Positions 1,022-7,000 of a stretch of 64,000 nt of DNA are shown here, in pieces; position 1 is the first letter of the stretch, and each line of letters begins with the position of its first letter. Under the pieces are notes generated by a model. That model was not told the origin of the DNA. It ran no database searches and saw only the letters and a list, made by a program, of their open reading frames with translations. Source of the stretch: Paracoccaceae bacterium (lineage in GTDB: Bacteria > Pseudomonadota > Alphaproteobacteria > Rhodobacterales > Rhodobacteraceae); contig JAJEBG010000016.1 in the NCBI GenBank assembly GCA_022824005.1, positions 62,001 through 126,000 of the forward strand, given 5' to 3'. Both the position numbers and the translations under genes were made by a program.

Positions 1022-4000
1022 TCACGAGCCTCTCTCATGCGAGTTGTCGGATTCTTCTTTCTTGGGCGATTTAGTTGCATGGAAGGCCGCATCGGGGTTC
1101 AACTCTTCGCTAGAGATGTCACTATCTTCAGCAAGACCCTCAATATTTTCGAATTCAATCTGCAAGACATCGTTGTCGGGGAATTCACCCTCAAGTTCAG
1201 CCAATTGTTGACGCTCCAACTCCTCGCGTTCGGCGACCAGCACTTGATCTCGTTCGCCAGCAATTCGACGCATTTCACTGGCCGCACCGCCTGTCCCTGC
1301 AGGAATAAGCCGGCCAACGATGACATTTTCCTTCAATCCCTTTAATAGGTCTCGCTTGCCCTGCACCGCTGCCTCCGTCAGGACTCGCGTCGTTTCTTGG
1401 AAAGAGGCCGCTGAAATAAAGGAACTCGTCTGAAGCGCCGCCTTGGTAATTCCTAGCAGAATCGTCTTGGCGGCCGCGGGCGTGAGCTTGTCTTCTATCG
1501 CCCGTTTGTTGATGTCAGCAAATTCCTGTTGGTCAAGTTGCTCACCTGCCAATAGCGTCGTCTGACCAGGGTCCGTGACTTCAACTTTACGGAGCATTTG
1601 CCGCAAGATCACCTCAATATGCTTGTCGTTGATCTTGACACCTTGCTGCCGATAGACATGCTGCACCTCTTCGACCAAATGGTCGGCTAGAGCTTCTACA
1701 CCCAGAATATCAAGTATGGCTTGAAGGGGTGCACTCCCCTCCGTGATCGAGTCACCCTTACGTACCCGGTCGCCATCTTGCACCAAGATATGCTCACTCT
1801 TGGGAATGAGATATTCGGGAGCCTCAACCGATGACTCCGCCGGTTCAATAGTCAACCTTCGCTTCCGCTTATGGTCAGGGTGGAAACGAATGGTGCCCGC
1901 GATACTGGCAATTTTGGCCGGCTCCTTGCTCCGTGCATCAAAAAGTTCTGCCACTTTGGGCAATCCACCCGTAATGTCGCTGGTCTTGGTACTTTCGCGT
2001 GGCACGCGAGCGACCACATCACCGCGCTTGATGGTATCACGATCACCGACCGAGAGCACCGCCCCCACGGGGAGAGAGTAATCAATCAAGCGCGTCATTG
2101 CTGTGGCGAGCCACGCCGAACTCTGACTTGCTCGGCCTTCATCAAGGACCGTTTCACGGATACCCACAACCGAAGGAGTCTTGGCTATCAGTTGGGAAAA
2201 ACTTGGATCCCATTCACATAAGATATCAGATGTCTTTACTTTGGTGCTATTTTTAACGGTCAACCGAGCCCCTATCGGCAAGGTCAATGTCTGATTTTTC
2301 TTGGCCCCCTGAATTTCAAGCGTCACATCACCAGAGGCGGTGACAATCATCCCCCGCGACTCATCAGCTGGCCCCATCACCTTGACACAACTGTCACCTT
2401 TAATGACCATTGTACCGGCCATCGGCGATCGGATTGAACGCGTTTGCGGAGAGAATCTGAAGAGTTCATCGCCCTCCTTCACTCGTTCACCCTCCTTCAC
2501 CAAGAGTTGGGACCCGATGGGCAAGACTTGAGGTGTCATATGCTCAAATTCCAACTTGACTCGTTCGCTTGAGCCATTTTTTTTGCCCACGGCTTGGCGA
2601 CGAACTTTGCCACTATAAGGGGCCAAACCAAGATGAGTCTGTGTGCAGGACACAAAGAGAACGTCGTTTTCCTTCACTTTATCGCCATCTCGAACCATGA
2701 GTTTTGCCCCCCGAGGAATCTTGCGGGTCACAACCCTCATGCTAGGCGCTTGAAGCCGGATGTAGGCGTTTCTTGACAGAACAAACTCGGCGTCTTTGTC
2801 ATCACCGTTAGCGACCTTTGCAAGCCTGACTTCCGTCAGTTGAACAGTACCGCTATGTTTGGCTTTGTATTCGGTTCGGTATTTGTCTGACGCGCCAACA
2901 AATAGAAGATCACCCACGCTGACTTGCTCATTGTTCTTCACGAGAATGCGCGCATCAGATGGTAGCGACAATTCTTCCTGACGCGCTTCAGTGATCTCAA
3001 TAAACGCCCCATTCTTGGCAATCAATTTCGATTTTGTTTTTGTTTTTTTGTCGGCAAATTCAAATTCGTAACTTTCGTCAATCTTCGATAGACCGATCAC
3101 TCCACCGTGTGGTGATCGAACAACCCATTCTTCGTTATCAAGCGAAGTGGAGGCGCAAATGCCAATCTGACTCGCGAGCTCACCCATTTCCGAGGCCGCG
3201 ATCAACCCGACATTCTGACCCTCGGGAGATAAGGAGATATCTCCATAACATTTGACACAAACACCCGGCTCAGATCGGCAAGTTAAGGGGGAGCGGATTT
3301 GTAGATTATTGAGACCTGATGCCTTTATGGCTTTCGCCGCCTTGACATCAATCACCTCTCCCGCATCGACAATCTGACGACCTGATTTGGGATCGGAGGC
3401 CTTCTCCGCTGCGATTCGACCCACCAATAATTTTTCTAAAACGGCACCGCTTCCGGCAATTTGTGTCAACAACTCGCTTGAAATCGAAGCTTCAGTTCCA
3501 CAATCGTCTTCAGTCAATAAACTGTGATGGAAACTCGATGTGAAATCTGATTCAAAGCTCAATTTCGCGCTTAAATCCTCCAGAGGCAACCGATTTTGAA
3601 TGGCGGCCCGGATAAGAACCTCAATATGTATGGGATCAATATCATTTTTTTCATGTGGATAAGTGAGAGGTTTTTCAGAACGCAAGAAGGCCGCCATCGC
3701 CAAACAAGAGGCGCGGGCCAAATCAAATTCGTGGTCTTCTCCTTTCTTGCCAGCCGTCTTGGGGAGTTGGAAAATACGCACTTCGCTACCCGTCACTTGG
3801 ATTCTAGGTTGGCTATTGGCAGGAGCCTCAACGACAATCTTTTGCGTCATTCCCGTGGTCGTATCGGTCTCTTCTCGGAAAGATGCATTGAGCCGAAGGT
3901 CATGGAATTTGGCTTGGCCATCCGTCTCGGCAATGATCTGTAGCGAGTGCGGGTCCCAATTATAGAGGACCTCACCATTCTCAACCTTATCGCCGTCAGA

Positions 4001-7000
4001 AACGTGCAGTCGCGCGCCCCGATCAAGTTTGTAGCGAACGGCCCGTCCCGACGAGTCATTGAGGAACAACGCGCCGTTGGTGCCAACAACAATTTCCTCG
4101 CCCAATTCATTAGAGATGCTCTTGACATCATTAAGTTCGACCGTTCCAGCATAACCGGCGGCCGATGATTGTTGCTCGCGTTGAGCGATGCCGCCAACGT
4201 GGAACATCCGCATAGTCAACTGTGTGCCGGGCTCACCGATGGATTGGGCGGCGATAATACCCACCGCCTCACCGATATTTACGGGCTCGCCTCGTGCCAA
4301 ATCGCGACCATAACATTTTATACACACGCCCATTTCCGACTCGCACGTCAGAGCCGAACGAACTCGGACCGATTGAATGCCCGCTTGCGTGATTTTCTCG
4401 GCGACCCCTTCCTCGACCAACTCGTTACGTTTGATAATCAATTCACCGGTTTTCGGATTCTTGACATCTTCGGCCACCACGCGACCCAAAATGCGTTCAC
4501 TCAGAGATGCCACCACCAGTCCATCACGCATGGCCGGACGTATGGTGATCGCGCGATCGGTTCCACAATCTTCCATTCTGACGATGCAATCTTGCGCGAC
4601 GTCAACAAGTTTGCGTGTCAGATAGCCGGAATTGGCCGTCTTCAGGGCGGTATCGGCAAGACCCTTTCTTGCCCCGTGCGTCGAGTTGAAATATTCGAGA
4701 ACGGTCAGCCCCTCTTTAAAGTTTGAAATAATCGGTGTCTCAATGATGTCGCCCGAAGGTCGCGTCATCAATCCCCGCATACCCGCTAACTGTTTGATTT
4801 GTGCCTCCGAACCCCGAGCCCCGGCATGCGCCATCATATAGATCGAATTCGGTTCGGCCTGTTGGTCATCATCGCCGTCTGGCAGCAATTTGATGCCATC
4901 CATCATCGCCCCAAGCACATTGTCCGAACATTCCGTCCAAGCTTCAACGACACGATTATATCGCTCTTCATCGGTGATATTGCCATCCCAGTATTGGTAA
5001 TCGAAGTCTTCCACCTTCTTGCGAGTCTCACTGACCAGTTCTTTTTTGGCCTCAGGAATCAGCATATCGTCCTTGCCGAATGAAATGCCGGATCGACACG
5101 CTTCATGGAATCCGAGTGCCATAATCTGATCACAGAAAATGATCGATTCCTTCTGACCGCAATAGCGATAAACGGTATCAATCACTTCTTGAACTTCTTT
5201 TTTTCGCAGCAAACGATTGACCAAACTGAAAGGCGTATTGACATTAAGCGGCAACAGTGAGCCAATCAGAACGCGGCCCGGAGTGGTATCAAATATTTGG
5301 TACTCGTCCTTTTGGCCGTCATCAATTTCCTCAATGGGTTTCGCCTGTTTGATGCGCGCGCGGATCTTTGCATGAAGATGCAATTGCCCCGATAGGAGCG
5401 CGTGTTCTACCTCATCAATTGAACCGTAGACTTTATTCGAAGCGGCGCCATTCTTGCGGCGAGCCCCCTTGCCCTCAACCCGAGTCTCGCCTTTCATTCC
5501 CCAGCGTTCCATACTGAGATAATAAAGACCCAAGACCATGTCTTGGGAGGGCACGATTATCGGCGCGCCATTCGCGGGTGAGAGAACATTATTGGTCGAC
5601 ATCATGAGAACTCGGGCTTCTAGCTGAGCCTCAAGTGACAGCGGTACATGGACCGCCATTTGGTCACCATCGAAATCAGCGTTGAATGCCGAGCAGACAA
5701 GGGGATGCAATTGAATCGCCTTGCCCTCTACCAAAACGGGTTCAAAAGCTTGAATGCCAAGACGGTGCAATGTCGGCGCGCGGTTTAAAAGAACCGGATG
5801 TTCACGAATGACGCTATCAAGAATATCCCAAACTTCCTCACGCTCCTGTTCAACAAACCCCTTTGATTGTTTGACAGTCGTTGAGATTCCTCTCTGTTCC
5901 AATTTGGCATAAATGAAAGGTTTGAACAGTTCCAAAGCCATTTTTTTGGGAATGCCGCATTGGTGCAGCTTAAGATCTGGGCCGGTAACAATGACCGAAC
6001 GCCCGGAAAAATCCACCCGTTTTCCAAGCAAATTCTGACGGAACCGGCCTTGCTTTCCTTTCAGCATGTCGCTCAAGGATTTCAGAGGTCGTTTATTGGT
6101 GCCGGTGATGGTGCGACCCCGCCGACCATTATCAAACAGCGCATCCACACTTTCCTGCAACATCCGTTTTTCATTGCGAATGATGATGTCTGGTGAACGC
6201 AGTTCAATCAACCGCTTCAATCGGTTGTTGCGGTTGATGACTCGCCGATACAGGTCATTCAGGTCGGATGTGGCGAACCGCCCACCATCCAGAGGAACCA
6301 GCGGACGGAGTTCGGGGGGGATGACCGGAATGACCGTCATGATCATCCATTCCGGCCGATTTCCTGATTGAATAAAACTCTCGAAAAGTTTCAGCTGTTT
6401 CACCAGTTTCTGTTTTTTGCTGACAGACTTTGTTTCAAGCAATTCCTCACGAATAAATTGTGCTTCTTCAACCAAATTGATTTGGCTGAGCATGTCGCGT
6501 ATCGCTTCGGCGCCAATACCAGCTTTGAAATTGCCCTCGCCCAATTCTTCTTGCGCCGTGACATATTCTTGCTCCGTCAACAGCTGTCCCAATTCAAAAT
6601 CCGTCAAACCTGGCTCAACAACCACATAGCTCTCGAAATACAATATCCGCTCCAAATCCTTGAGCGGAATGCCCAGCATGGTGCTGATTCGCGAAGGCAA
6701 AGATTTGAGAAACCAGATATGTGCCACCGGCGCGGCCAGAACAATATGACCCATCCGTTCACGGCGCACTTGCGCCAAGGTCACTTCAACCCCACATTTC
6801 TCGCACGTCACGCCACGATATTTCATCTTTTTGTATTTGCCACACAAACACTCGTAATCCTTGATGGGGCCTAGAATTCGGGCGCAGAACAAGCCATCTC
6901 GTTCTGGTTTGAAGGTGCGATAATTGATCGTTTCAGGTTTCTTGATCTCGCCATAAGACCAAGCGAGAATCTGCTCCGGTGAGGCCAACGAAATCCGAAT

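Follow-up and report, generated by a model that had tools for sequence, protein, structure and literature searches.

The rpoC gene of the window, the whole 64,000-nucleotide stretch of DNA analysed here, raises the question of why a four-cysteine segment of the RNA polymerase β′ subunit occurs twice in one protein, and of what the second occurrence does. Cys833/907/914/917, which we take to be zinc site 2 of β′ in name and in its zinc role, are spaced 74-7-3; Cys1188/1262/1269/1272 (codons at 3500-3502, 3278-3280, 3257-3259 and 3248-3250, respectively) repeat this spacing, and their flanks are kept too in the window protein, as the original prediction described. The corresponding site of E. 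coli β′ is presumably Cys814/888/895/898. A one-to-one BLASTP comparison of the copy with the canonical segment gave 43 identical residues out of 119 (79 bits, E 1e-23), and the match ran beyond the cysteines into the N-terminal trigger helix, where 15 residues of one segment aligned with 15 of the other. The copied module was homologous over its whole length, both to a profile of canonical RpoC (E 1e-29) and to the zinc-site-2 region of solved β′ chains (lowest E 2.4e-17 with the full PDB set searched; residues 808-931 in E. coli). Judged by these sequence comparisons, the resemblance of the two segments is not due to chance, and the second is a true copy of the zinc-site-2 module.

The four-cysteine repeat is therefore real, but the cysteines are part of a copied module of about 130 residues, which in turn lies within a gain of about 540 residues in SI3 (Table 1). 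The copy stands outside the usual place of the module between the bridge helix and the trigger loop, inside SI3, and the canonical module is also present. The repeat had been suggested to be a second zinc centre. Cys72/74/87/90 are presumably zinc site 1 of β′, with the zinc role that goes with it; since this site and the canonical site 2 are already there, the copy would be the third zinc site of the subunit. Putative zinc binding by the copy is likely in the window protein. No second rpoC was found in the genome, where PF04997 and PF04998 have one match each, which rules out an extra rpoC gene elsewhere.

Table 1. Features of the rpoC gene in the window (residues of the β′ protein; positions in the window).
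Feature	Residues	Position	Strand	Basis
rpoC, RNA polymerase β′ subunit, 2013 aa		1022..7063	-	ORF; Pfam Rpb1 domains 1-5
Canonical zinc site 1	Cys72/74/87/90	6794..6850	-	cysteine listing
Rim-helix region	669-721	4901..5059	-	8/24 near-invariant positions changed in both carriers
Canonical zinc site 2 module (Cys833/907/914/917) and N-terminal trigger helix, with a ten-residue trigger sequence	826-958	4190..4588	-	
SI3 insertion in trigger loop, 738 aa	959-1696	1976..4189	-	
First (canonical) SBHM of SI3	968-1084	3812..4162	-	profile of 31 canonical RpoC, E 3e-32
Remnant resembling C-terminal helix region	1113-1158	3590..3727	-	hhalign E 9e-6
Copied zinc-site-2 module (Cys1188/1262/1269/1272) and degenerate trigger helix	1181-1312	3128..3523	-	
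SBHM-like unit after copied module	1313-1408	2840..3127	-	continuation of profile match 501-728, E 1e-29 for the whole stretch
Extra SBHM-like stretch	1396-1473	2645..2878	-	profile E 2e-6
Extra SBHM-like stretch	1513-1573	2345..2527	-	profile E 7e-7; Pfam RPOC_hybrid 1512-1536
Extra SBHM-like stretch	1571-1639	2147..2353	-	profile E 7e-8
Last canonical SI3 part and start of C-terminal trigger-loop half	1656-1709	1937..2098	-	profile E 2e-19
C-terminal helix region resembled by the remnant	1788-1826	1586..1702	-	

SI3 lies between the two halves of the trigger loop, with a ten-residue trigger sequence before it and ITGGLP after it. Its length is 738 aa in the window protein, 725 in the related genome G003, 192 in G001, 199 in G002 and 192 in G077. 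When 75 rpoC ORFs were measured with the boundary set one residue later, SI3 was 192-200 aa long in 71 of them, and the exceptions were the window genome, G000 (739), G003 (726, present twice), and G062 (296). A larger collection, of 129 ORFs, in which overlapping loci of one genome were treated as separate and G062 was not caught by the motif, had an SI3 of 192 in 98 cases, 193 in 21 and 200 in two; seven belonged to G000 and G003, and the remaining ORF, from G032, failed the motif and has a normal SI3 by eye.

The insertion is made of SBHM repeats, namely the canonical SBHM and further stretches recognized by the profile, with Pfam barrel-sandwich matches that include RPOC_hybrid. Both carriers, G000 and G003, have the same order of parts: the canonical SBHM; the remnant of the C-terminal helix region; the zinc module with its trigger helix and an SBHM; three SBHM-like stretches; and the last canonical SI3 part with the C-terminal trigger half. 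The zinc module, trigger helix and SBHM form one unbroken profile match (E 1e-29 for the window insert and 4e-21 for that of G003); the profile was built from 31 canonical RpoC ORFs, G001 and G077 twice each, and its E-values hold for one or two sequences searched. The helix remnant, which is short and known from two sequences, scored 45.4 in hhalign, where 200 column shuffles reached 28.2 at most, and was weak by plain HMM (-0.2 bits in the window, 5.4 bits in G003). The residues of the trigger motif LTMRxFHxGG have a catalytic role; the motif is present in the first copy and gone from the second, so the second trigger helix is no longer a working one.

Among the genomes searched, the duplication is limited to two sister species, the window genome and G003, a Rhodobacteraceae MAG. 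Of 147 relatives (126 with any match), these two were found to have a pair of zinc-site-2 modules within a single rpoC; they account for two of the four members of the genus. Among 150 genomes from the phylum (145 with a match), the window's own was the one case found. Two of 394 family genomes gave a strong match to the remaining part of the insertion (E 4.6e-104 or better), and the next best value was 3.3e-16. A search of contigs with the window insertion alone as query confirmed no relative. With both inserts aligned, the whole 586-residue query was covered by one among the best 80 of 528 relatives, and this sole full-length match was G003's own contig, JAPOTI010000027.1; the search used two patterns only, and absence elsewhere does not follow from it. 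In a quick tree of 72 RpoC cores, G000 and G003 formed one clade (SH-aLRT 100) on a long stem (1.53), and G002 stood beside them (92), a placement that is unsure because of the long branches; the stem and tips of the insert are long branches as well. On the evidence of this tree and distribution, the insertion has one origin, in the clade of G000 and G003. Misassembly is ruled out by the same architecture in two genomes at 35% identity. Between SRITT and ERVLYF, the RpoC of G003 has, by eye, about 29 residues more than that of the window.

We consider it fairly probable that a lineage-specific internal tandem duplication of rpoC produced the giant SI3, and that the module copy within it is structural, probably zinc-bound, and dispensable. 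In the common ancestor of the two Rhodobacteraceae species, an in-gene tandem duplication would have begun at zinc site 2, taken in SI3 and reached as far as the C-terminal helix region. The C-terminal trigger half of the first copy would have been lost and its C-terminal end reduced to the remnant; the active trigger loop would now pair the N-terminal half of the first copy with the C-terminal half of the second, and all the sequence between them would have become the giant SI3. The order of the parts is the one expected from such a duplication minus the first C-terminal trigger half. Inside the giant SI3, the copied module would have lost its trigger-helix residues, the SBHM-like units would have multiplied, and the whole would have diverged fast. 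Most likely the copied module serves the SI3 tower as a folded structural element. The four cysteines of the window protein would probably still hold a stabilising zinc, and this metal would be dispensable, because the sister species has lost one ligand. As with the duplication route and this structural role, we infer the placement of the enlarged SI3 relative to the rim and the jaw. The copied modules share slightly more identity with the canonical module of G077, a member of another genus (40% and 38%), than with their own (34% and 33%), which makes a foreign donor of the copied module possible; this closeness can be explained by fast evolution of the carriers' core.

How far the copy is maintained bears on its role. 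It might be a tolerated leftover with no selected role, in an SI3 that accepts extra sequence, with the module decaying and the zinc site going first. The comparison of the carriers offers this account some support: the ligands of the G003 copy are Cys, Cys, Ser and Cys, spaced 73-7-3, and DCGT is replaced by SCAV; copy 2 is only 29% identical between the sisters, where copy 1 reaches 80% and the N-terminal core 84%; and the retention of three of four ligand columns does not go beyond the background identity of 30% (P = 0.08). At the canonical zinc site 2, all four cysteines are invariant (34/34 rows). Against decay, the ligand cysteines are better kept between the carriers than the other cysteines of SI3 (3/4 versus 1/11; 45/1365 = 0.033, one-sided, calculated by hand), and both species keep the whole insertion in the same order. 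The codon-position identities of the copy between the carriers, 0.38, 0.59 and 0.32 for positions 1, 2 and 3, also speak against it: they indicate that the copy is constrained as a protein, chiefly at codon position 2, with position 1 little above position 3. On balance, a mere leftover is unlikely, although it keeps an appreciable share of our expectation. Considering the low identity of copy 2, the ligand loss and the codon-position constraint together, a fold-like sequence seems to have been kept, and the metal site of the copied module looks optional.

Very unlikely is the idea put forward in the original prediction, namely a further structural or sensory zinc centre with all four ligands under selection. 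The four cysteines and their flanks are all present in the window protein, and the copy is homologous to the module in solved β′ structures, which is presumably a zinc-binding one. However, ligand 3 is changed from Cys to Ser in G003, the only homologue found, where the copied cysteines are thus not all kept, and the searches made here found no evidence of a sensing role for the copied zinc module. What stands of that interpretation is the true copy, the presence of four ligands in this protein and the protein-level constraint; selection on all four ligands is not borne out in G003.

Structure prediction was of limited help. The canonical zinc-site-2 module binds zinc, and it served as a control for the copied one: AlphaFold gave the cysteine region of the copy a pLDDT below 50 and that of the control likewise below 50, and since the control failed alike, the models say nothing on cysteine clustering. 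The subdomain between the first and second cysteines was fairly confident in both (blocks of 83-93 in the copy and 69-92 in the canonical module). The 50 Foldseek matches listed for the copy model were RNAP β′ chains; this adds little, because the rmsd was 9.6-24 Å and the TM-score 0.24-0.32 by query length.

A regulatory role was considered in view of DksA. According to two reports, E. coli Si3 touches the shelf and the jaw and takes a second position at the TraR globular domain; TraR, a relative of DksA, also binds the rim helices, its globular domain with a C4 zinc motif contacting both these and Si3; and DksA binds in the secondary channel (PMC6970531, PMC9239242). Neither carrier gave a DksA match with PF01258 or a full DksA query, and both non-carrier members of the genus did. 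In a sample of 150 family genomes at least 95% complete, which did not include G003, DksA was found in 147; the three others were G000, G032 and G062. Among the 70 genomes with both measures, expanded SI3 went without DksA in 3/3 cases versus 1/67 for non-expanded SI3 (P 7e-5, or 1e-3 with the two sisters taken as a single case). ORF length was the measure of expansion in this comparison; G009 and G063, which had the longest ORFs among the others, proved on checking to have an SI3 of 192 aa. In the Rhodobacteraceae genome G062 (locus L035), which sits on a very long branch and yielded no DksA, SI3 is enlarged to 296 aa; the extra stretch of about 100 residues is SBHM-like by eye and has no second zinc module.

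The rim helices were also altered. Of 780 near-invariant RpoC columns, defined on 69 non-carriers with G062 left out, 69 were changed in both carriers: 8/24 in the rim-helix region versus 61/756 elsewhere (P 6e-4), the boundaries of this region being set by a motif and the region having been picked after the DksA result. RelA/SpoT was found in 6/6 genomes, both carriers among them, which rules out loss of ppGpp synthesis. Loss of Gre factors as a correlate of the insertion is likewise ruled out, as GreA/GreB were found in both carriers and in G002; they were missed in the non-carrier G001 (91% complete).

These observations could be taken to mean that the enlarged SI3 and its zinc module stand in for the lost DksA, the retained RelA/SpoT and the zinc-bearing domain of TraR adding to the appeal of the idea. 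However, the cases come down to one clade and G062, which lacks the second zinc module; residues 1697-1870 are nearly as changed as the rim (24/99); G032 has no DksA found and yet a normal SI3; the MAGs are 97-98% complete, so a gene may have been missed; and both changes could stem from fast evolution combined with genome reduction. The DksA and rim pattern is therefore read as correlated change around a remodelled SI3, with fast evolution and genome reduction as confounders. It is improbable that this RNA polymerase, with its self-duplicated zinc module in SI3, employs the giant insertion as a built-in regulator at the rim of the secondary channel, replacing the DksA lost from both carriers. 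Least probable of the readings weighed here is a replacement of DksA in which the enlarged SI3 and zinc module contact the remodelled rim helices in cis.

The internal duplication favoured above can be set against known systems. The window copy resembles zinc site 2 of bacterial β′ in its four cysteines, the 74-7-3 spacing, the homologous subdomain between the first and second cysteines, and the trigger-helix-like segment that follows; it differs in being a second copy within SI3, in having lost the trigger residues, and in the loss of one ligand in the sister species. The giant SI3 is an SI3 expansion, a kind of change already known. The SI3 of E. coli RNAP has 188 residues and two SBHMs (PMC6970531), and like it the window SI3 sits between two trigger-loop halves and consists of SBHM units; unlike it, the window SI3 has 738 aa, a copied zinc module and a remnant of the C-terminal helix region. 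Cyanobacterial Si3, with 645 residues and eight SBHMs, is described as the largest known in the main text of its report, where the word "zinc" was not found (PMC10802570). The window SI3 is likewise giant and SBHM-rich, but it is longer by the boundaries used here, contains the copied zinc module, and belongs to an unsplit rpoC (a single 2013-aa ORF, no rpoC1/rpoC2).

A survey of BEAN and HABAS domains describes, in its main text, β′ insertions that are lineage-specific and in some cases recursive, and the expansion in the window is lineage-specific as well; "duplicat", "zinc" and "SBHM" were not found in that main text (PMC11515920). Judged by titles and the beginnings of abstracts, the literature searched held no case of an SI3 or rpoC with a duplicated zinc module or a partial duplication, and nothing usable was found there on the function of zinc site 2.

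No β′ other than this one was found in the genome, and it has taken up about 540 additional residues midway through its trigger loop, a copy of a core zinc module included. The two sisters amount to a natural experiment in how much insertion a catalytic centre tolerates; in what zinc does in the module, one sister having four cysteines and the other three; and in whether SI3 enlargement goes with loss of DksA.

Three minor observations came from the same sequence sets. One rpoC (L103), from a contig with the title Enemella evansiae (Actinomycetota), groups with Marivita in the tree; that record is likely contaminated. In a 0.6-Mb genome of the same class, a 2712-aa open frame surrounds rpoC (G106:C1:116468-116842) and is perhaps an rpoB-rpoC fusion. 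The trigger helix itself (residues 931-958, window 4190-4273) has the same ten-residue sequence in both carriers, with two changed positions at which the non-carrier rows have Thr (69/69) and Ile (68/69).
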